Made by a program: the position numbers and the translations under genes. From Helicobacteraceae bacterium (GTDB lineage Bacteria; Campylobacterota; Campylobacteria; Campylobacterales; Sulfurimonadaceae), in assembly GCA_027063225.1 (NCBI GenBank), contig JAMOSG010000034.1, positions 1 through 64,000 of the forward strand: a stretch of 64,000 bases of DNA, in the 5' to 3' direction. Each line of letters begins with the position of its first letter. Within the stretch, counting starts at the first letter, position 1. Positions 21,616 through 48,452 of this stretch are shown here, in pieces. Under the pieces are notes generated by a model, which worked only from the letters and a program-made list of their open reading frames with translations, had not been told where the DNA came from and searched no databases.

Positions 21616-23496
21616 ATGCAAAATATACAACAACAAATTACTCAAAACTTTCAAGACAATATTGAATACTTTAGTCAAAATCATCCCGATATTTATGAAA
21701 AAATTGCTGCATTTGATAGTGCAGTAGAGCAAGGTGCTTACACTCCACGTTATGAACTTACTTATGAAGATGGTGGGTTTGATCTTTTTGAAAAAGCAAT
21801 ACAAAAATATTTTTACGCAAAACAAAGTTTACAATATAGCAAACTTGCACAACAAAGTGTTGATACCTCTATAGAGGAGAACTGTTTTGTATCATTTGTA
21901 AAACATAAAGAGTTTACAAAAAAATCAGATACCCCTTTTATGTTTGCAGATGATGGTCTAACACCTATTGCAAAGCTTACACAACAAGAGGAAGTGAAAA
22001 AGTTTGATAAATATATATTTTTTGGTTTAGGGTTAGGGATTCATTTAGAGGCTATTGTTCAAAAAATTAAGCCAAAAGTTTGTTTTTTAGTGGAGGAAGA
22101 TTTAGAGCTTTTTCGAAATTCACTTTTAACTACAAATTATAAAGAACTTGCAAAACAAACAGAGCTTATTTTTTCTGTTTTTGATGATGATTTAGAGCAA
22201 ACAACTCAAAAATTTTTAGCATACAAATATCACTATAATCATTACATTAAATACTTTTTAATGTTCCATCAAAATCAATCCATTATAGAACAGTTTTATA
22301 ATATTTTAAATACAGAACCTTATTTTTATTATATGTATAATGATTTATTAAAACATATAGTAAAACCTTTTAAATCCTTTGAATATGGTACTCAAATCTT
22401 AAGTCACAATGTATCCTTATCTGCTATAGAAAAACCTTTTTTACTCTTAGGTGCAGGACCATCTCTTGAGCATCAAATAAAATGGCTTCAAAAAAATCAT
22501 AAAAACTTCATAATAGTAGCACTCTCTGCAACTCTTGCTCTATTGCAAAAGTATAATATTCAACCAGATATTATTACCCATATAGATTCTTTTAAGGCTG
22601 CTAAAGCACATTTCCAAAATATACAAACCAGTTTTTTAGAAAAAAGTATTTTAATAGCTTCAGCAACTATTGAAATTGAAATTCAAACTAAATTTCAAAA
22701 AAAGAAAGTTTTTCTTTTTGAAAATGGTACAAACTATATTAAACAGTCTATTAAAATTGCTACACCATGTAGTGGCTCTGCAAGTTATCAACTTCTTCTA
22801 CAACTAAATGTAAAAAATCTTTATTTACTTGGCCTAGATTTAGCAGTAGATTCAAAAACAAAACAAACTCATATTACAACACATAGTTCAAATAAGATAC
22901 TTCATACTAACAATGAAAATAGTTACAAAAAAAGACTCTTTCCTGTTCAAGGAAATAAACAAAATAAAGTTTTAACAACTCCTCATTTCAAAACATCAAT
23001 TGATTCTGTAAACCTTTCAACAAAACTGTTTAAACAAGAATTTACTACTATCTATAATTGTAGTAATGGAGCATATTTTGAAAATACACTTCCTGTTGAA
23101 ATTCAATCAATTATTATCAAACATCAAAATGGTATTAATTTAGAAAAAATTCTTCATCAATTTAGTATTAATACAATTGATATTGAACTCTTAAAAGAAA
23201 AAATTACATTTTATAAAGAGTGTAAAACAAAAATAAAACTATTCCAACAAAAGTCATTTATTGATTATTCAGAATTTCTTCACGAACTAGAAGAGTTTAG
23301 TTACTTTTTTATCCAAGAAAAATTTTTAAAAACATATGAACTTTGCCGTGTTTTTGATCTTTATTTCCATAAAAGTTTAGTTTTTATATTTCAAACCGAT
23401 AGTGGTAATATTAAAGAGATTCAAACCTTTTTCACCAATCATCTTCAACAGATGATAGATTTTTATAATACAAAGGCTATAAATGCAACATATTGA
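21616..23496 (+). CDS. Maf/DUF115 motility accessory factor-like protein (copy 1)
   Basis: KPFLLLGAGPSLEHQIKWLQKNHKNFIIVALSATLALLQKYNIQPDIITHID, typical of the MAF_flag10/DUF115 core. Confidence 0.85.
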   Translation: MQNIQQQITQNFQDNIEYFSQNHPDIYEKIAAFDSAVEQGAYTPRYELTYEDGGFDLFEKAIQKYFYAKQSLQYSKLAQQSVDTSIEENCFVSFVKHKEFTKKSDTPFMFADDGLTPIAKLTQQEEVKKFDKYIFFGLGLGIHLEAIVQKIKPKVCFLVEEDLELFRNSLLTTNYKELAKQTELIFSVFDDDLEQTTQKFLAYKYHYNHYIKYFLMFHQNQSIIEQFYNILNTEPYFYYMYNDLLKHIVKPFKSFEYGTQILSHNVSLSAIEKPFLLLGAGPSLEHQIKWLQKNHKNFIIVALSATLALLQKYNIQPDIITHIDSFKAAKAHFQNIQTSFLEKSILIASATIEIEIQTKFQKKKVFLFENGTNYIKQSIKIATPCSGSASYQLLLQLNVKNLYLLGLDLAVDSKTKQTHITTHSSNKILHTNNENSYKKRLFPVQGNKQNKVLTTPHFKTSIDSVNLSTKLFKQEFTTIYNCSNGAYFENTLPVEIQSIIIKHQNGINLEKILHQFSINTIDIELLKEKITFYKECKTKIKLFQQKSFIDYSEFLHELEEFSYFFIQEKFLKTYELCRVFDLYFHKSLVFIFQTDSGNIKEIQTFFTNHLQQMIDFYNTKAINATY

Positions 23497-25456
23497 ACAA
23501 CAAGCACAAGAGTGTTATCAAAAAAATAGTGAATTTTTACAAAAGTATCATCCTGAAATTTACACAAAACTACAATACATTACAACACAAAACTATGACT
23601 TAGAATATCTTGATGGATACTTTGATGTAAAACAACTCTCAAGTGGCTTCTACCTTTATCAACAAAACTCTTACGAAGTTGCTGCAGCTCTTGCTGATCG
23701 TGTTAATTTTCAAAAAGATTCTAATGTTTTTGAAGGTTTTCCACTCTATTATGGTTTTGAAAAACATAAAGAAAATTTTGATGACAAAATAGCAGGTCGT
23801 GAAGGACTTTACCCTCTTATGACTTTTTATCTTAATCATACAAAGCCAAATGATTCTATGAAAGAAATTGAAAAATTTATTTTTATTGGTGTTGGTCTTG
23901 CAACACATATCCCTACAATTCACAACAAGATTAAAGCTCGTTCTTACTTAATTATAGAAGATGATTTAGAACTTTTTCATCTATCACTCTTTGTCACACC
24001 GTACTATGAATTTCACAATATAGCAACACTTTACTTCTCAATCGCAGAAGATGAAAATCATTTTTCAAATACAGCAAATAAATTCTTAGAAGATAGTTTT
24101 TATGCCAATAGATATCTTAAATATTCACTTTTTCCAGCACATAGTAAAACAAAAATAAAATATTTACAAAATATTTTAGCTTCTCAAGACTTTATCACAT
24201 TCCCATATAGGACTCTTTTAACTAAATATTTAAAACCACTAGAGTTTTTACAAACACATAGAGTGCTTAATCTATCTAAACATTTAAATAAAAAAATTTT
24301 AGAAAATAAACCTATACTTGTTCTTGGAGCTGGACCATCATTTACAAAACATTTAGAATGGTTAAAAATAGCACATGAAAAATTTATTATAATAAGCGTT
24401 GCATCCCTATCTAAAACATTATCACAATACAATATTCACCCAGATATTATCCTTCATATAGATGGTTTTGCAAGTGTCTCCAAAATTTATGAAGGATTTA
24501 ATGCTAAAACTTTCTTAGAAAAAAGCATCAAAATCTTTGGACCATTTACACCAACAGATATTCGTGAACATTTCACAGATGAGAAACTTTTTATGTTGGA
24601 AGAAAATACATACTATCATAAAAATTTTTTTTCATATATTGGTTCATGTGTTGGCTCAACAGCAATTTTAGATTCGGTTCTTTTAAATGCACAAGACATT
24701 TATCTATTAGGCACAGATTTTGCCATTGATCAAACAAGTGGAGAATCTCATAGTAGTACTCATATTACAAAAAAAATTAGTGATCTTTCTAAAAAAGATG
24801 AAATAAGCAATACAATGTCCTTTAGAGGGAACCTCTTTCCTGTCAAAGGAAACTTTACAAAAAAAGTTTACACTAATTCACTTTTTCACACATCACTCCA
24901 AGCACTGTATAATCTTATCCCTCAAATTAAAGAACCATCACAAAATCTTTATAATTTAAATGATGGTGCAGCAATTTTTGGAACAATTCCGTTTCATATT
25001 GAAGATATTACTCTTGAACAACTACCTAAACTCAATAAAACATCTATTCAAAATAAACTTATAGAGGAATTTCAAGATCTTAGTAAATCAAAACTTTCTA
25101 AAGAAGATATCCTCTCTTTAAAAAAGAGAATTGAATATGTAGATAAAATTTTAAATCTTATACAAATACATAAAGGAACACCAAAATCAAATCCACAAAC
25201 CTATCTATACTCTTTATTAGGTTTAGTTTCTGATATTTTAAAATTACAAGGGGCAAGGGAAAGTAATAATATTATCACCGTTTATTATAGTTATTTTCAT
25301 TCAAGTGTCGCTATTATTATGGATCTTTTTAATACTCAAGAACTAAAGAATGAAAAAAGATTAATCAAAAAAGTAGATAAATTCTTTATAAATGAGCTTA
25401 TTGTCATTGCAACAATCTATAAGAAGACTATCAACTCTTTCCTGGAAACACTTTAA
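23483..25456 (+). CDS. Maf/DUF115 motility accessory factor-like protein (copy 2)
   Basis: KPILVLGAGPSFTKHLEWLKIAHEKFIIISVASLSKTLSQYNIHPDIILHIDGF; overlaps copy 1 by 14 nt. Confidence 0.85.
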   Translation: MQHIEQQAQECYQKNSEFLQKYHPEIYTKLQYITTQNYDLEYLDGYFDVKQLSSGFYLYQQNSYEVAAALADRVNFQKDSNVFEGFPLYYGFEKHKENFDDKIAGREGLYPLMTFYLNHTKPNDSMKEIEKFIFIGVGLATHIPTIHNKIKARSYLIIEDDLELFHLSLFVTPYYEFHNIATLYFSIAEDENHFSNTANKFLEDSFYANRYLKYSLFPAHSKTKIKYLQNILASQDFITFPYRTLLTKYLKPLEFLQTHRVLNLSKHLNKKILENKPILVLGAGPSFTKHLEWLKIAHEKFIIISVASLSKTLSQYNIHPDIILHIDGFASVSKIYEGFNAKTFLEKSIKIFGPFTPTDIREHFTDEKLFMLEENTYYHKNFFSYIGSCVGSTAILDSVLLNAQDIYLLGTDFAIDQTSGESHSSTHITKKISDLSKKDEISNTMSFRGNLFPVKGNFTKKVYTNSLFHTSLQALYNLIPQIKEPSQNLYNLNDGAAIFGTIPFHIEDITLEQLPKLNKTSIQNKLIEEFQDLSKSKLSKEDILSLKKRIEYVDKILNLIQIHKGTPKSNPQTYLYSLLGLVSDILKLQGARESNNIITVYYSYFHSSVAIIMDLFNTQELKNEKRLIKKVDKFFINELIVIATIYKKTINSFLETL

Positions 25457-25460
25457 AAAG

Positions 25461-27026
25461 CTATACCTTTAAACCAACAACAGTTATATCATCATTTCTA
25501 TCACATTCTTGCTGATATTTAAGAAGTTGGTCTATAAGGATTTGCTTTTGTTCCTCCATACTTTTTCTATGTATTCTTTCTAATAAAACTTTAAATTTTT
25601 TCTTTCCTAAAGGAAAGCCTTTCTCTCCTCCATTTTGGTCCCAATAACCATCACTAGAAACATAAACACAACTACCTGTTTCTAAAGAAACCATATGCTC
25701 ACTAAATTGATACTCTACATCACTATCTTTATATCCAACAGAATAACGATCAGCTTTAATTATTTTTAATTGATCTTGCTCAAAATAGTAAATTTCATTT
25801 CTCGCACTTGCACATTTCATAATCTTTTTTTCTCTATTAAAATAGAGTATTTGACCATCAAAACCAGCATTAAAAAGGGAATTTTTATCTTCTTGTTTTA
25901 AAAGATGCTTCATTGTTTTATTGAAAATTGCTAAAATATTTGCTGGACTCACCTCTAGATTTGGAGAATTTTTTAATTGTGTTACTATTTGTCTCTCAAT
26001 TGCCTTAACTAACATAGTTACAAATGCACCAGGAACACCATGCCCTGTACAATCAATTACCATTAACAAAGACTCACCTTCTCGTAACTCTTCAAATAGA
26101 TAAATATCTCCTCCCACTAAATCTTTAGGTTCCCATATAACAAAATGATCTTGAAAATGCTTTTGAATATCATCCTCATGAGGAATAAATATATTTTGTA
26201 TTAAAGCTGCATATTCAATAGAGTCTTGTGTATTTTTATGAATTTGTTCTATCTGTGATTTTGCATTTTGCAATTCATCTATTAATTTCAATTGTTCTCT
26301 ATCTTGTAATTTAATTGTAGAAAGCATACTATTAAAACCATCAAATAATATTTTAAATTCATCATTATTTTGTGTAGAAATATGTAAATTATAATTCTTA
26401 TTTTGTTTGACATTTTGGATAGCATTCTTCATTGTAAAAAGTGGATGAAGAACCATATTTTTAATTTTAGTTGCAATAATCAAAACAATAATTAAGGTTA
26501 CAGAAAAAACTAAAGCTAATGTAATTAAAAGCTTCTCTTTAAATGCTTCTAATGAATGTGTATTAGAGATAATTGCCAATGTAGCTAAATGCCCATCACT
26601 AGAGTATAAAACACTACTTGTAATAATATGTCTATCATCTATATGCTTAATCTCTGTTGTTAAATTTTTTTTATTTAATTTTTTCAAAAGTGCTTGTAAC
26701 TCTTTTACATGAATACCTTGTGCCATGTATGAAGCAAAAAGATCCCCTTTTTTATCTAGTAAAATTGCCCCATCAATGCTAGGATTAAGATGTAAAGTTT
26801 GTAATGTAGTTGTTGCTCCCCGTTTATCCTCAAAATCAACTGCTGCAACAAGATTTTGCGCCATGATCTTTGTAGAAAGAGCCAAAGAATCTAAAGTATC
26901 AACTTTTTTCTCATGTAATACAGAGTAAAAAATAGCTATAGAAGTTGGAATAAGAATAGTAGAAACACTCACTGTAATAGCTAAAAAAAGTTTTGTTCCA
27001 ATTGATATAAATTTTTTTTTCATCAT
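25461..27026 (-). CDS. Membrane sensor with CHASE8-like domain, HAMP and SpoIIE/PP2C phosphatase
   Basis: Two TMs; ...MAQNLVAAVDFEDKRGATTTLQTLHLNPSIDGAILLDKKGDLFASY...; PP2C motifs VIDCTGHGVPGAFV, VSSDGYWDQ, DDITVVGLKV. Confidence 0.88.
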   Translation of the reverse strand: MMKKKFISIGTKLFLAITVSVSTILIPTSIAIFYSVLHEKKVDTLDSLALSTKIMAQNLVAAVDFEDKRGATTTLQTLHLNPSIDGAILLDKKGDLFASYMAQGIHVKELQALLKKLNKKNLTTEIKHIDDRHIITSSVLYSSDGHLATLAIISNTHSLEAFKEKLLITLALVFSVTLIIVLIIATKIKNMVLHPLFTMKNAIQNVKQNKNYNLHISTQNNDEFKILFDGFNSMLSTIKLQDREQLKLIDELQNAKSQIEQIHKNTQDSIEYAALIQNIFIPHEDDIQKHFQDHFVIWEPKDLVGGDIYLFEELREGESLLMVIDCTGHGVPGAFVTMLVKAIERQIVTQLKNSPNLEVSPANILAIFNKTMKHLLKQEDKNSLFNAGFDGQILYFNREKKIMKCASARNEIYYFEQDQLKIIKADRYSVGYKDSDVEYQFSEHMVSLETGSCVYVSSDGYWDQNGGEKGFPLGKKKFKVLLERIHRKSMEEQKQILIDQLLKYQQECDRNDDITVVGLKV

Positions 27027-27032
27027 TCCAAC

Positions 27033-29333
27033 CTAAAACTGGTATCTTCCACTAATATAATAATATGCTCCACTATAACCAAATGGAGAATATCTTGAAT
27101 AAGGTTTGATACTATCATAACCATAATAAGGATTTTCTTGAGAGTATGCAAGCCCATCCCATTTATTTGGTAGTGTATCAAAAATATTAATTGAACCTAT
27201 AGAAATAGTACTATTCTTAGATAAATGATATGTTACATCAACATCTGTACTCCAACTCCAATCAAACCAATAACGCTGTTGATTAATCACTTCTGCATAT
27301 TTACTATGAGCATTAACATTAACGCTATATTCAAACTGCCTTACTTTGTACTTTGTTAATAATCTTCCATTATGTTTTGGTTGCCCATGCTCCATTCTAT
27401 CTATTTGTTCAAAAGAGTTTTCACGAGTAATTGTGTCGGTATTAAAATCTACTACATCATTACTACTATAGTTATACCAAGCATTTAATATCAGAATAGT
27501 ACTATTTTCTAAATAAAACTTATTTTCAAATTTTACATCAACACCATACGTTTGAGTATCAACTGCATTGGTAAAATAACTAACACGTTCTACTCCATAC
27601 AGCTCTTGATCTTCTAATGAAAGAGTTTGCTCATTTGAAAGCATAATTCTATCTTTTGCTTTTGTAAAAAAGTAATCAACCATTAAAGTACTACTGTCTG
27701 CTATTTTATAGACACTACCTAATGTCAAGTGTTGTGATTTTTCTGCCTTTAAAGATTCTGCTCCTAGAGTTTTAGAAACAGTAGCATCTGGTGTAAATGT
27801 ACCACTTACAACACCACCAAAAGTTGCTATATTTGAATAATGAGATTGAGCAAGAGATGGAGCACGAAATCCAGTACTAAGAGAAAATCTAATTAAAAAA
27901 TTTTGATTTACCTGATAACTAGAAGCTAATTTAAAATTTTTTGTTTCACCAAAATCACTATAGTGTTCATATCTAAGTGCTCCCTCAAAAAGAAAACTTT
28001 CAATAATGGTATATGTTGTATCAAAATATACAGCATAACTTGAACGATCAACATCAACAGCACTCATTGTACTATAACCTGGAAATCCCTCTGATCCACC
28101 ATCTATATAAGATACTTCATCACCAGCACCTATTGCATAACGCTCATAACGATACTCCAAACCAGCAGCAAAATTCCAAGCATTAAAACACCTTTTTAAA
28201 TCAAAGTTTGTTGTATTTTGAATAAATTTCAAAGAACCATTATAAAAAGATGTAGGAGAATCATCACCTAGAGAGTAATTCATACTATTATCAACATAGT
28301 ATTTAATATAATTAATACCATAAGTATTACTTAAATCCCATTCTACTCCATAACCAAAGCCACCTTCTAAACCAATAGTAGATGAAAAATCAACGATCTT
28401 TGCATTAATAATAGGTAAAAAACCATCATGGATATATCCAGTTTCATTATCTTCACCAGCTGGTCGATAAAAAGCACTTGCTTTAGAATCTCTATAATTA
28501 AATAAAGCATTTGCATAAATATTAAATCCATTTTTTTGAGGAACTTCAATATTTAAAGAAGCTAAATAGTTACGACTCTGAGGAATACCAACACGTGTTG
28601 TTACCCTAGGAGGCTCAACTCTTCTATCTGGTCCTGCCCTATTTGTATCATCTTGATCTTTAACTTGCACAGCAAAGTTAACAAAACCATCATACTCCAA
28701 CTCTTTAGAATAAAAGATTTCACTATTTATAAGACGCCCATCTTTATGGGAACGCTTTGCAACATCTATTTCAATAATATTATTCGCATTATTATTCTTT
28801 AAAATAATATTAATCACACCTGCTATTGCATCAGATCCATACTGAGCAGCGGCTCCATCACGTAATATCTCTATACGTTCAATAAAAAGGGGAATAATAG
28901 TATCCAAGTCTACATTACTTGAACCTCTTCCAATGGTTCCATTGACATGCAATAATGCCGAAGAGTGTAACCTTTTACCGTTTAATAATACAAGTACTTG
29001 ATCTGGGCTCATTCCTCTTAAAGTAAAAACTCTTACATGATCACTACCATCTGCAATAGATGTCTCAGGAGCATTAAAACCTGCAACAAAGTATCTTAAT
29101 ATATCTGTTACAGAGTGAAGTCCTGTTGCAGCAATATCATTTGCAGTAATTACATCAACAGCAAAGGGGGTATCAGAAAGATTTTTAGCTCCACTACGCG
29201 AACCTACATCCGCTTGAAGTTCACTCTCTATATTCATTAAATCCTCTAAGGAGTCATCAAATAGATCTTTAGCTTGCAATGTTAAAGTAGTATAAATACT
29301 TACCAAAAAAAATAATTTTTTATCGAATAACAT
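27033..29333 (-). CDS. TonB-dependent outer-membrane receptor
   Basis: Plug domain DTPFAVDVITANDIAATGLHSVTDILRY, ERIEILRDGAAAQYGSDAIAGVINIILK, terminal aromatic F. Confidence 0.93.
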   Translation of the reverse strand: MLFDKKLFFLVSIYTTLTLQAKDLFDDSLEDLMNIESELQADVGSRSGAKNLSDTPFAVDVITANDIAATGLHSVTDILRYFVAGFNAPETSIADGSDHVRVFTLRGMSPDQVLVLLNGKRLHSSALLHVNGTIGRGSSNVDLDTIIPLFIERIEILRDGAAAQYGSDAIAGVINIILKNNNANNIIEIDVAKRSHKDGRLINSEIFYSKELEYDGFVNFAVQVKDQDDTNRAGPDRRVEPPRVTTRVGIPQSRNYLASLNIEVPQKNGFNIYANALFNYRDSKASAFYRPAGEDNETGYIHDGFLPIINAKIVDFSSTIGLEGGFGYGVEWDLSNTYGINYIKYYVDNSMNYSLGDDSPTSFYNGSLKFIQNTTNFDLKRCFNAWNFAAGLEYRYERYAIGAGDEVSYIDGGSEGFPGYSTMSAVDVDRSSYAVYFDTTYTIIESFLFEGALRYEHYSDFGETKNFKLASSYQVNQNFLIRFSLSTGFRAPSLAQSHYSNIATFGGVVSGTFTPDATVSKTLGAESLKAEKSQHLTLGSVYKIADSSTLMVDYFFTKAKDRIMLSNEQTLSLEDQELYGVERVSYFTNAVDTQTYGVDVKFENKFYLENSTILILNAWYNYSSNDVVDFNTDTITRENSFEQIDRMEHGQPKHNGRLLTKYKVRQFEYSVNVNAHSKYAEVINQQRYWFDWSWSTDVDVTYHLSKNSTISIGSINIFDTLPNKWDGLAYSQENPYYGYDSIKPYSRYSPFGYSGAYYYISGRYQF

Positions 29334-29820
29334 CTGCTATCCTTAAAAGTGAAGATTTAATCTCTAAATGCTCCTGTTTTGCAACATGTAGATTGATCTT
29401 GAGACGAGCTTTTTGTGAAGAGAAATAGATTTGCAAAATACCACCTTTTTGTGCAAAACCACGAATACTACTGACAGTTAAAACACCTTTTTTAGGTACT
29501 TGTTGGAGGATTTCTAAAAGATTTTTGGAATTTTGTGTTGCAATATACAAAATATCAGTTGCTTGTAACTCTTTAATATTTTCTATGTAGTGTATCTCTA
29601 CAGATTTGTTATGAATTGTTTTGTTTTTATAAATACGTTTAAAAAGCTCAAAGTTATGTCCATTAAGTAATGTAATAACAAAACTTTGACGCTGAGAACG
29701 TGGCCAAGAAATATATTTTGCAACTTTTCCAACAATAACACTTCGAAGTTCCTCTTGCGATTGATAAGCACTTAAAAGCGTTACACTTAGCAAAAGTATA
29801 AAAATATATCTCTTGATCAT
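29320..29820 (-). CDS. YfiR/DUF4154-family periplasmic protein
   Basis: Signal peptide; VGKVAKYISWP, LNGHNFELFKRIYKNKTIHNKSVEIHYIENIKELQATDILYIATQN. Confidence 0.85.
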   Translation of the reverse strand: MIKRYIFILLLSVTLLSAYQSQEELRSVIVGKVAKYISWPRSQRQSFVITLLNGHNFELFKRIYKNKTIHNKSVEIHYIENIKELQATDILYIATQNSKNLLEILQQVPKKGVLTVSSIRGFAQKGGILQIYFSSQKARLKINLHVAKQEHLEIKSSLLRIADVIR

Positions 29821-29825
29821 AGAGG

Positions 29826-30704
29826 TTACTTAACTCTCTTTAATCTTTCTATCTCTTGCTCTTTATAAAGTTCTGCACACCCTTTTGAAAGTTCACGAAT
29901 TTTCAATATATAGTTTTGACGTTCAGTTTGACTAATAGCTTTGCGTGCATCTAAAACATTGAATGTATTTGATGCTATCATACATAAATCATAAGCAGGA
30001 AGAGGAAGTCCAGCTTCAAGTGTACGTTGACACTCCTGAGCTTTTACATTAAATTCTTCAAAGAGCATCGTAGTATCTGCTACTTCAAAATTATATTTTG
30101 AAAACTCTATCTCACTCTCTTTATGTACATCTTTATAGTAAGTTTTTTCACCATTATGTTCATTCCAAACAATATCGAAAACAGAATCCACACCTTGTAG
30201 ATACATCGCTAAACGCTCTGTTCCATAAGTTATTTCAACAGTAACTGGTGAACACTCTATTCCTCCAACTTGCTGAAAATATGTAAACTGTGTCACTTCC
30301 ATACCATTAAGCCATACTTCCCAACCAAGCCCCCATGCACCAAGCGTTGGTGACTCCCAGTTATCTTCCACAAAACGGATATCATGCTCTTTTACATTAA
30401 GACCTAAATATTCTAAAGATTTTAAATAAAGCTCTTGAATATTATCAGGAGAAGGTTTGATAATAGCTTGAAATTGGTAATATGAACCTAAACGATTTGG
30501 ATTTTCTCCATAACGTCCATCTGTTGGACGACGAGATGGTGCAACATAAGCAGTTGCCCAAGGAGTAGAGTCTAATGAACGTAAAAATGTAGCAGGATGA
30601 AAAGTTCCAGCACCAGCTGGAATATCATAAGGTTGCACAATATTACACCCTTGTTTCATCCAAAACTCTTGTAGTTTGAGTAACATTTCACTAAAAGTTA
30701 TCAT
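29826..30704 (-). CDS. glyQ: Glycyl-tRNA synthetase alpha subunit
   Basis: [60 protein letters not shown]. Confidence 0.97.
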
Positions 30705-30829: not shown

Positions 30830-31672
30830 CTATTGAAGGAGTTTCATAACATTTTGTTGAACAGCATTAGCCTGACTCATAGCATATGAACCAGATTGTG
30901 CTAAGATGTTGTGTTTAGAGAAGTTTGCACTCTCCGCTGCAAAGTCAACATCACGAATCTGAGATTCTGCTGCTGTCACATTAACTTCTGTTACAGAAAT
31001 ATTACGTACAGTTGATTCAAGTTTATTTTGAGCCGCACCAATAATCGCACGACGTTCATCAAGATTTTTAATTCCCTCATCCATTCTAGCAATAGTTGCC
31101 TCAGCATTTGTACGAGTATCAACTTTATTTGAACCAATAGATGCACCAGTAATAGCAGAAACAGAGTTTGTTCCTAAATCTGCCGTTTGTGTTTCTTTAG
31201 AAAAAGCACCTGTATGAAACACAAATTTACCATCTTTAGCCTCTCCACCTTCACCAGTTAAAACTGACATACCATTAAATCTCGTTGTATCATTAATATC
31301 TTGAGCCTCTTCTAAAAGAGCAGTTACCTCTTTTTGAATATGACTACGAGAAGTTGTATCTTGCGTATCATTGGCTGCTTGAATCGCTAAAACACGAACA
31401 CGCTGTAAAATATTGCCATACTCTTCTAAAGCACCATCAGCTGTTTGTAAAAGACCAACACCATCGTTTGAATTACGAATAGCTTGCCCTAATCCTTGGG
31501 CCTGAGCATGAAGCTTATTTGCAATAGCAAGACCTGAAGCATCATCCGCAGAACGGTTGATTCTTAACCCTGAACTTAATGAATTTAGACTTTTATCAAG
31601 TCCAACATTATTCATCACAGAACTTCTATGTGCATTCATTGCACCCACGTTTGTATTTATTCTAAATCCCAT
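30830..31672 (-). CDS. Flagellin (copy with sigma54-type promoter)
   Basis: MGFRINTNVGAMNAHRSSVMNN..., LNSLSSGLRINRSADDASGLAIANKL. Confidence 0.95.
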   Translation of the reverse strand: MGFRINTNVGAMNAHRSSVMNNVGLDKSLNSLSSGLRINRSADDASGLAIANKLHAQAQGLGQAIRNSNDGVGLLQTADGALEEYGNILQRVRVLAIQAANDTQDTTSRSHIQKEVTALLEEAQDINDTTRFNGMSVLTGEGGEAKDGKFVFHTGAFSKETQTADLGTNSVSAITGASIGSNKVDTRTNAEATIARMDEGIKNLDERRAIIGAAQNKLESTVRNISVTEVNVTAAESQIRDVDFAAESANFSKHNILAQSGSYAMSQANAVQQNVMKLLQ

Positions 31673-31707
31673 GGTTACACTCTTTCATATAGATATTTGC
31701 AAAAATA

Positions 31708-31726
31708 TAGCAAAAAGAGTTCCAAA
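31708..31726 (-). promoter_or_regulatory. Sigma54 promoter of the downstream flagellin
   Basis: Minus strand TTTGGAACTCTTTTTGCTA = GGAA-N6-TTGCT. Confidence 0.8.
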
Positions 31727-31764
31727 GTTATAAAAATGAAAAAATATATGATGAAAAAAGGGGA

Positions 31765-31790
31765 ATTTTAGCAGCCAAAGCTGCTAAAAT
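31765..31790 (-). terminator. Terminator between the two flagellin genes
   Basis: Perfect 11-bp stem ATTTTAGCAGC-CAAA-GCTGCTAAAAT, 3' of the upstream flagellin. Confidence 0.75.
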
Positions 31791-31806
31791 ATGAAGAAAG
31801 TCAAAA

Positions 31807-32649
31807 CTACTGAAGTAGTCTTAATACATTTTGTTGAACAGCATTAGCCTGACTCATAGCATAAGAACCAGATTGTGCTAAAATATTTCTTTTAGAAAAG
31901 TTCGCACTTTCTGCTGCAAAATCAACATCACGAATTTGTGATTCTGCTGCTGTTACATTTACTTGAGTAACTGAGATATTTCTTACAGTTGATTCAAGTT
32001 TATTTTGAACAGCACCAATACGAGCACGATGCTCATCAAGGTTTTTAATAGCATTATCCATTCTTTCAATAGTTGCTTCTGCATTTGTACGAGTATCAAC
32101 TTTATTTGAACCAATAGATGCACCAGTAATAGCAGAAACAGAGTTTGTTGCTAAATCAGCTGTATGTGTTTCATCTTTAAAAGCACCAATATGGAAAGTA
32201 AATTTACCTTTACCATCTCCACCCTCTTTACCACTTAAGATAGCAACACCATTAAATCTTGTTGTATCATTAATATCTTGAGCTTCTTCTAAAAGAGCAG
32301 TTACCTCTTTTTGAATATGCTCACGTGAAGTTGTATCTTGTGTATCATTGGCTGCTTGAACAGCAAGTACACGAACACGTTGAAGGATATTTCCATATTC
32401 TTCTAAAGCCCCATCAGCAGTTTGAAGTAAACCTATACCATCATTTGCGTTACGAATAGATTGACCCAAACCTTCAGATTGAGCATGCAATTTATCTGCA
32501 ATAGCAAGACCTGAAGCATCATCTGCTGCACGATTAATTCTTAACCCTGAACTTAGTGAATTCAAACTTTTATCAAGTTGAATATTGTTCATTGTTGCAT
32601 TTCTGTGAGCATTCATTGCACCCACATTTGTGTTAATTCTAAATCCCAT
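31807..32649 (-). CDS. Flagellin (copy with sigma28-type promoter)
   Basis: Highly similar to the neighbouring flagellin; MGFRINTNVGAMNAHRNATMNNIQLDKSL... Confidence 0.95.
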   Translation of the reverse strand: MGFRINTNVGAMNAHRNATMNNIQLDKSLNSLSSGLRINRAADDASGLAIADKLHAQSEGLGQSIRNANDGIGLLQTADGALEEYGNILQRVRVLAVQAANDTQDTTSREHIQKEVTALLEEAQDINDTTRFNGVAILSGKEGGDGKGKFTFHIGAFKDETHTADLATNSVSAITGASIGSNKVDTRTNAEATIERMDNAIKNLDEHRARIGAVQNKLESTVRNISVTQVNVTAAESQIRDVDFAAESANFSKRNILAQSGSYAMSQANAVQQNVLRLLQ

Positions 32650-46511: not shown

Positions 46512-48452
46512 TTACTCATTTAAAGGTAAATCAGTTACACGAACTTTTTGTACTACAGTTTGTTGAGTTTCACCCTCTAATGTAAATTTAATAACTAAAC
46601 TATTATCAATATACTGGATTGTTAAGTCTGTATCTTCTGTTACACCATCAAATCCAGAGTCATTATTACTGTCTCCTGCGATTGTTCCACATACTCCATC
46701 TGGATCATTCGCTTCATCACAAGAGATATGATAGTCTGTTCTTGGATCAGCTGTTACTTTAATAAATCCATCACTATCTATTGTATATGTTCCAAACTCT
46801 GTTCTATTGATAGAATCATCATTTAATGTAGAATTTACATCACTCATATTTCCATCTACATACATATAATTCCCATTTCCATCCAATGTCATAAATGTGT
46901 AGAGTTCACCATTAAAACTTGCCCAAGTACCAATTTCTGGATGTTCTTGTGTTGGTACAAGTTTTGTAGCAGTTACAGTATCATCTTCAGGTGTAGATAG
47001 TGCTAATGTTGGAGGTGTTTTATCTTCATATGTTCCTGTAACACCCACTGCACTATCTTCTCCATTTGTATTTACAATTGGTGTAGCATTAGCAAAAGAA
47101 CCATCCATTGTTGGTGTATACATTCCAACTTCCACTCCACCCAATTGTCCACCATCACCTAAAACTTGTTGTGTCATAAAATATTGATTATTTGGCATAA
47201 TCACAAGTAAAGTTCCAAAAGCAGCATTATCCTCTGGAAGTACCCATGTTCCAACTAAAGGATTACTAGGTGCTTGTGCAATATCACTTACTTCTGTATC
47301 TGTTTGAATTTGAGTTGTATCACTAGTTTGAAAAAGATTTAATTGTGTTTCTAAAGCAGTTCCAATAGCTTTTAAATCTGGATTTATAGATGCTTTTAAA
47401 AGTGCTATTTCATCTTCTAATGATAAAGGAGCTGTCGTACTAAAATCATTTTCTTCTAATAATGCAGCAATAGCATCTATTAATGTTGTAGCATCTGTGC
47501 TTGTTGTATCGCCAGATAAATCTAAAAGATTTTGTGCTTCAAGTTCTGCAGAATCCAACGATGTAATATCATCAAATGAAACAGTTGTTTCATCCCCATC
47601 AATAATCTTTGTTTTAATCTCATTTTGCATTAAACGAACTTTTGTACCTAACTCTTTTGTACTCGTTACTCCATTGGCTGCTAATGTTCTTACTTGTTGC
47701 ATCAACTCTTTTGTTGCAGTTGCAACATCACTATCTGGTGCAATCTTATCTACAGCACCATCTAAAGAATCAACATCTCCAGCTTTTAAATCTTTTGCAA
47801 TATTAGCATAAATTGATTCAACAGAAGCATTATTTGCATTTGCTAATACTTCAGCACTTTTTTGAAGTTCTAATGCAGCACTTAAAAGTTCTGGTTTTGT
47901 TTGTGATAAAGCAATAGGATCAGCAAAAAGATCTGTATCAGCATCTAAACCTAAAAGAGTTTTTACACTTGATTGTGCGTCTGTTAACGAAGTACCTTCT
48001 TCTACCATAGCCTGAACCATAGCAGTTATTGGTGTTATATTTGTTTGCTCATCTGAACTAAATGGAGAAGTTAATTTTCCAGTAAATGGTGCATTTGTAT
48101 CTACATCATATCCACCATATACAAGTAAAGGTGCTGTATCAAATCCACTATCTTCTTGTTGTGTAGCAGTAATTTCTAAAGAATACTTTCCATCTTTATC
48201 TGTTGTGGTTGTTGGTTCTGTTGTATCTTGACAAATATTATCTTGATTTAAATCTAAACAAACTGTCGCATAAGCTAAATAACCATCTACAGCATTTCCC
48301 ACTGTTGAAATAGATTCAACTGCAGAATTTGTTGTATCTGAAACTGTATTTGTTGTATCATCAGATGAACTACTCCCACACCCACTCATACCTAAAAGTA
48401 AAGCAGTAGTTAAAGAAAGCATTGAACCTTTTAAAATATAATTTTTCATCAT
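46512..48452 (-). CDS. Large acidic lipoprotein of unknown function
   Basis: Lipobox LLLGMSGCGSSSS; VDGYLAYATVCLDLNQDNICQ... Asp/Thr-rich. Confidence 0.8.
   Translation of the reverse strand: MMKNYILKGSMLSLTTALLLGMSGCGSSSSDDTTNTVSDTTNSAVESISTVGNAVDGYLAYATVCLDLNQDNICQDTTEPTTTTDKDGKYSLEITATQQEDSGFDTAPLLVYGGYDVDTNAPFTGKLTSPFSSDEQTNITPITAMVQAMVEEGTSLTDAQSSVKTLLGLDADTDLFADPIALSQTKPELLSAALELQKSAEVLANANNASVESIYANIAKDLKAGDVDSLDGAVDKIAPDSDVATATKELMQQVRTLAANGVTSTKELGTKVRLMQNEIKTKIIDGDETTVSFDDITSLDSAELEAQNLLDLSGDTTSTDATTLIDAIAALLEENDFSTTAPLSLEDEIALLKASINPDLKAIGTALETQLNLFQTSDTTQIQTDTEVSDIAQAPSNPLVGTWVLPEDNAAFGTLLVIMPNNQYFMTQQVLGDGGQLGGVEVGMYTPTMDGSFANATPIVNTNGEDSAVGVTGTYEDKTPPTLALSTPEDDTVTATKLVPTQEHPEIGTWASFNGELYTFMTLDGNGNYMYVDGNMSDVNSTLNDDSINRTEFGTYTIDSDGFIKVTADPRTDYHISCDEANDPDGVCGTIAGDSNNDSGFDGVTEDTDLTIQYIDNSLVIKFTLEGETQQTVVQKVRVTDLPLNE

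Follow-up and report, generated by a model that had tools for sequence, protein, structure and literature searches.

A YfiR, TonB receptor and CHASE8-PP2C phosphatase gene cluster in a Helicobacteraceae bacterium and its probable SiaC/SiaB partner

Three packed genes on the minus strand

The window analysed here is a 64,000-nucleotide stretch of contig JAMOSG010000034.1 (assembly GCA_027063225.1, Helicobacteraceae bacterium), and its subject is a cluster of three minus-strand genes for a YfiR-like protein, a TonB-dependent receptor and a two-transmembrane-segment protein with a PP2C/SpoIIE phosphatase domain. An earlier note, made from the letters alone, had described these tightly packed genes and their products; the open reading frames (ORFs), rechecked and all found open where that note had placed them, bore this out, as did Pfam matches and hydropathy. 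The yfiR-like gene (29320..29820, minus strand) encodes a 166-aa periplasmic regulator of the DUF4154 family (Pfam 8.8e-31) with a hydrophobic, signal-peptide-like N-terminus. The gene for the outer-membrane receptor (27033..29333, minus strand; 766 aa, plug 1e-24 and beta-barrel 1.2e-27) overlaps it by 14 nt, and a spacing of 6 nt separates the receptor gene from that of the 521-aa CHASE8-HAMP-PP2C/SpoIIE phosphatase (25461..27026, minus strand; SpoIIE 2.9e-17), the proposed SiaA-like output protein of the cluster.

The catalytic motifs of the phosphatase, read as intact in the earlier note, are all present (GGDI at 305, DCTGHG at 325, SDGY at 458, and NDDITVV). Its best match in the PDB is 6k4e, the PP2C domain of SiaA (5.6e-43), and the NCBIfam SiaA equivalog profile matches residues 102-520 at 2.6e-76. 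That match scores 257.6 bits against an equivalog cut-off of 700 bits, and therefore the phosphatase is not SiaA itself; by sequence comparison, its catalytic domain is nearest to that of SiaA and is termed SiaA-like.

The periplasmic segment had been called CHASE8-like, and both Pfam (residues 44-119, 9e-13) and NCBIfam sensor models agree. The N-terminal 240 residues match 'HK_near_YfiR_like', a model of sensors associated with YfiR-like proteins (3e-31), and the N-terminus also matches DgcN/YfiN (8e-16). Transmembrane segments near residues 14-32 and 166-184 bracket the CHASE8 domain, and the HAMP match is weak (Pfam 0.007, below cut-off). An AAVVF patch of YfiN was proposed to contact YfiR (PMC3375315). 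At this position the window CHASE8 has AAVDF (residues 61-65, codons at 26832..26846, minus strand), a Phe-centred patch that is kept and that we propose as the YfiR contact; Phe65 was found in all 25 survey CHASE8 sequences covering the position.

The window YfiR is the sole DUF4154 protein found in the source genome. It matches NCBIfam YfiR_like_TOL0243 at 1.2e-22, below cut-off, and YfiR structures in the PDB only weakly (0.01). No cysteine occurs in it, the mature part having been inspected, so that the redox or disulphide control proposed for Pseudomonas aeruginosa YfiR cannot operate here. YfiR-adjacent receptors of six further genomes from its class share 40-46% identity with the window receptor, on which no FecA-type N-terminal signalling domain was found, Pfam matching plug and barrel only.

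Upstream of yfiR and on the same strand, glyQ (29826-30704) ends only 5 nt away, and because of this short distance glyQ may be the first gene of the transcription unit. The operon is flanked by two tandem Maf-type glycosyltransferase genes (21616-25456) on one side and a tandem pair of very similar flagellin genes (30830-32649) on the other. Elsewhere in the window, an ORF of 646 aa (46512-48452) has no Pfam match at 0.001.

Output genes beside YfiR and the receptor in related genomes

A YfiR profile search of 399 genomes of the order matched 26 of them. A TonB-dependent receptor gene adjoins yfiR in nearly all complete loci, and the output gene next to the pair varies, encoding CHASE8-(HAMP)-GGDEF, CHASE8-histidine kinase, CHASE8-histidine kinase-REC-Hpt with a REC-PP2C gene behind it, or, like the window, CHASE8-HAMP-PP2C. 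The last of these arrays is present in seven genomes, the window's included. The co-occurrence in relatives that the earlier note had set as a test is therefore found, and since many genomes of the order have the array of receptor, YfiR and output, the three-gene arrangement is not due to chance. Output types are interspersed on a tree of YfiR and receptor, which gives moderate support to several exchanges of output. Co-occurrence in relatives and the CHASE8 matches support the earlier suggestion that a TonB receptor takes the place of YfiB and a PP2C phosphatase that of the cyclase. Two of the three findings that would have refuted that suggestion, a sensor segment other than CHASE8 and a lack of co-occurrence, were thus looked for and did not turn up.

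At one surveyed locus (L164:6683-7959), the CHASE8-GGDEF gene beside YfiR-TonB is broken into two overlapping ORFs, probably by a frameshift. Outside the class, the distribution of the array is known from a Zoogloea locus (L053) and from the NCBIfam models. A scan of genome contigs with a TonB alignment was discarded, as it strayed into the TonB superfamily at large; among its loci the Zoogloea one alone had YfiR and CHASE8 adjacent.

In two genomes, G210 (L039) and G326 (L187), a YfiR domain is fused to PP2C beside SiaC, with a charged, heptad-like stretch and a transmembrane segment between the two domains, and in G210 a TonB receptor gene also adjoins the fusion. These fusions bear on the possibility that the phosphatase works with SiaC while YfiR and the receptor form a separate uptake unit, linked to it by shared expression only. 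YfiR-TonB pairs lacking an adjacent output gene, in G060 and at a second G210 locus (L170, L173), are consistent with such a unit. However, a CHASE8 output recurs beside YfiR-TonB with GGDEF, histidine kinase and PP2C domains, the Phe patch is conserved and the fusions join YfiR directly to PP2C, and we regard a separate uptake unit as improbable.

SiaC, SiaB and a stalked histidine kinase

The earlier note had remarked that no STAS or anti-sigma partner is visible, which is correct within the window and does not hold for the genome as a whole; it missed a likely downstream partner, SiaC/SiaB, and a probable histidine kinase output in the source genome. Profile searches of that genome found one SiaC (3.9e-41) and a SiaB of the DUF6272 family (2.4e-29), encoded in an operon with the order methyl-accepting chemotaxis protein (MCP)-SiaC-histidine kinase-SiaB, which holds no phosphatase gene. 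In the phosphosite region of SiaC, NSS aligns with N67-T68-S69, placing Ser where Thr68 stands. The kinase, encoded between siaC and siaB, is a soluble protein of 315 aa whose stalk contains ISDKQQ. This stalk, RLNKIIKISDKQQ, is in register with RLEKVARISDRYQ of SiaD and weakly matches the stalk to which SiaC binds on SiaD in 7e6g (E 0.4, ISDRYQ register). The first gene of the operon (L033:13586-15181) encodes an MCP that has an Mcp40H-type sensor and weakly matches CHASE8 (0.0015); this protein may serve as an input or be a target of SiaC.

SiaC was found in 43 of the 399 genomes. Among those with a YfiR-linked output, it is present in 11/11 genomes with PP2C versus 1/14 with GGDEF or histidine kinase outputs (Fisher p 3e-6, a guide only, because the genomes are related); the count leaves out G060, which has an orphan YfiR-TonB pair. 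The same division is seen within genus g1, in which SiaC is present in both PP2C genomes and absent from both GGDEF genomes. SiaC binds SiaD through stalk residues S82, D83 and Q86 (PMC8457831). Of 40 kinase, HD-GYP or GGDEF proteins encoded within two genes of SiaC, 28 have a SiaD-like motif, scored as [SAGT]D[KRST]xQ in the N-terminal 160 residues, compared to 12 of 575 other ORFs. An HD-GYP protein of the source genome (661 aa, L192:6463-8448, contig C27) was considered and rejected as a SiaC target: its HD-GYP part is 72% identical to that of a SiaC-linked protein, but a GAF-like N-terminal region replaces the stalk. By eye, its C-terminal part resembles a metallo-beta-lactamase fold.

Some relatives carry the two sets of genes together. 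G305 (L167) has a tight single operon, SiaB-SiaC-HDGYP-HK-YfiR-TonB-CHASE8PP2C, whose kinase (HK) shares 49% identity with the source-genome kinase, and in G266 (L034) and G317 (L168) one operon holds YfiR, receptor, CHASE8-PP2C, HD-GYP, SiaB and SiaC. In two other genomes (L208 and L214), SiaC-HK-SiaB is followed by a PP2C gene, the kinases being 52-57% identical to the source-genome kinase. G060 has a 1303-aa CHASE8...PP2C protein beside SiaB/SiaC, without YfiR (L036:6812-10723), and, at a separate locus (L170:7634-10428), a YfiR-TonB pair without an output gene; the two loci may be halves of one such circuit. A 724-aa ORF beside SiaC at a further locus (L224:4556-6730) matches both SiaB and PP2C profiles, which makes a kinase-phosphatase fusion possible.

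STAS proteins are frequent targets of SpoIIE/PP2C domains, and the phosphatase, under the same control by YfiR, TonB receptor and CHASE8, could instead act on a classical STAS anti-anti-sigma factor of the RsbU-RsbV type and thereby control a sigma factor. A REC-SpoIIE protein in the source genome is consistent with this. Against it, the catalytic domain is nearest SiaA, and relatives tie CHASE8-PP2C to SiaB/SiaC. A stand-alone STAS protein was sought in the source genome and none was found, STAS domains being confined to ORFs of 377-514 aa, nor was an RsbW-type kinase found there above cut-off (HATPase_c_2 matches below cut-off lie in ORFs of 327 and 829 aa). We consider a STAS target unlikely; judged by gene content and sequence, the partner of the phosphatase is probably SiaC/SiaB, and the output in the source genome is probably the histidine kinase.

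A proposed relay and its relation to known systems

The sequences show gene content, domains, conserved motifs, operon fusions and co-occurrence; from these we infer every interaction in the following relay, along with its ligand, its output and the sense in which YfiR acts. It is fairly probable, in our view, that the three genes form a Yfi-type transmembrane relay with a SiaA-type phosphatase output, acting on SiaC and then on a kinase here or an HD-GYP protein in relatives. The TonB receptor, by its ligand or transport state, would take up or release YfiR in the periplasm, in the role of YfiB. YfiR would bind CHASE8 at the conserved Phe patch and hold the phosphatase in one state, by analogy the inactive one. 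Once YfiR is withdrawn, the HAMP/PP2C dimer would become active and dephosphorylate the SiaC Ser that matches Thr68, opposing the kinase SiaB. Unphosphorylated SiaC would then bind the ISDKQQ helical stalk of the soluble histidine kinase and set its activity. In related species the target may be a stalked HD-GYP protein, and therefore the signal there would change cyclic di-GMP (c-di-GMP).

The relay may also be real with the opposite sense, YfiR activating the phosphatase or the ligand-bound receptor releasing YfiR to inhibit it, which differs from the scheme above in sign only. P. aeruginosa YfiN, whose output and outer-membrane partner differ, is the one case in which the sign is known, and the YfiR of the two fusions (L039 and L187), being covalently joined to the sensor, cannot be taken away from it. 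Inhibition by YfiR has its support in the YfiBNR analogy only, and the opposite sense is a possibility to be kept in mind, though we think it the less likely one.

Several points weigh against the relay acting through SiaC. The phosphatase and siaBC genes lie on different contigs of the source genome, and because the assembly is 77% complete, it could lack a further SiaA-type phosphatase or a further SiaC. The genome also has a second SpoIIE phosphatase, the REC-SpoIIE protein (383 aa, contig C11), the only other SpoIIE found in it. The counts behind the SiaC co-occurrence, whose PP2C side spans 7 genera, are not fully independent. A single-sequence AlphaFold model of the phosphatase was uninformative (predicted local distance difference test score 35). 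The REC-SpoIIE gene itself lies in a cluster (L193:2457-7837) with genes for an 828-aa histidine kinase and a 560-aa REC protein that also matches GGDEF.

The cluster resembles YfiBNR (TpbB) of P. aeruginosa in its periplasmic YfiR-family protein, its inner-membrane CHASE8/PAS-like-HAMP sensor, the AAVxF patch and an outer-membrane partner in the operon. However, the output is PP2C rather than a GGDEF diguanylate cyclase, the outer-membrane partner is a TonB receptor rather than the OmpA/Pal lipoprotein YfiB, and the window YfiR lacks the four conserved cysteines that PMC3375315 reports for YfiR of complete systems. With SiaABCD of P. aeruginosa it shares a SiaA-like PP2C, a SiaB kinase and SiaC in the genome, and a SiaC-binding-like stalk on the presumed target. 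It differs in its input (CHASE8 with YfiR/TonB, not the SiaA sensor), in its presumed target (a histidine kinase, or HD-GYP in relatives, not the diguanylate cyclase SiaD), in the Ser in place of Thr68 and in its genes being split over two loci.

Other systems share parts of this arrangement. The TOL_0243/TOL_0244/HK cluster (NCBIfam NF053591, NF053590 and NF053592) combines, by its model names, a YfiR-like protein, a TonB receptor and a CHASE8-type sensor, but its output is a histidine kinase, and the three window proteins miss the curated cut-offs of these models (80.5/125, 46.6/645 and 108.7/194 bits). Divergent YfiNR systems described in silico by Malone et al. 2012 (PMC3375315) likewise have modular outputs (GGDEF-EAL, HPT, histidine kinase and MCP) replacing GGDEF behind a YfiR-controlled sensor; PP2C does not appear in the passages drawn on here, and the word TonB is absent from the main text. 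In Campylobacterota, pathways predicted in 2022 (PMC9239204) lead from a periplasmic-sensor PP2C, a STAS kinase and a STAS protein to a c-di-GMP enzyme; the parts of that article drawn on here do not mention a YfiR or TonB receptor input. In FecA-FecR-FecI, the state of an outer-membrane receptor is also relayed to the inner membrane, but the window receptor lacks the N-terminal signalling domain and has no FecR or sigma factor adjacent, and its relay would run via YfiR.

A search of the open-access literature, subscription journals lying outside it, yielded no paper that connects YfiR to TonB receptors or to SiaC. Nor did the literature searched describe the union of YfiBNR and SiaABCD via YfiR and a TonB receptor, fusions of YfiR to PP2C or the docking motif that the SiaC-linked proteins share. 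We lean slightly towards a Campylobacterota signalling family in which the state of a TonB receptor would be passed through YfiR and a CHASE8-HAMP-PP2C phosphatase to the phosphorylation of SiaC, with SiaC serving as adaptor for stalked effectors that can replace one another (histidine kinase, HD-GYP or GGDEF) and have one docking motif in common. The relay would join YfiBNR and SiaABCD, two c-di-GMP-linked pathways until now described apart. It further suggests that neither FecR nor sigma factors are needed for a TonB receptor to signal across the envelope, and we propose a general SiaC docking motif on histidine kinases and HD-GYP proteins.

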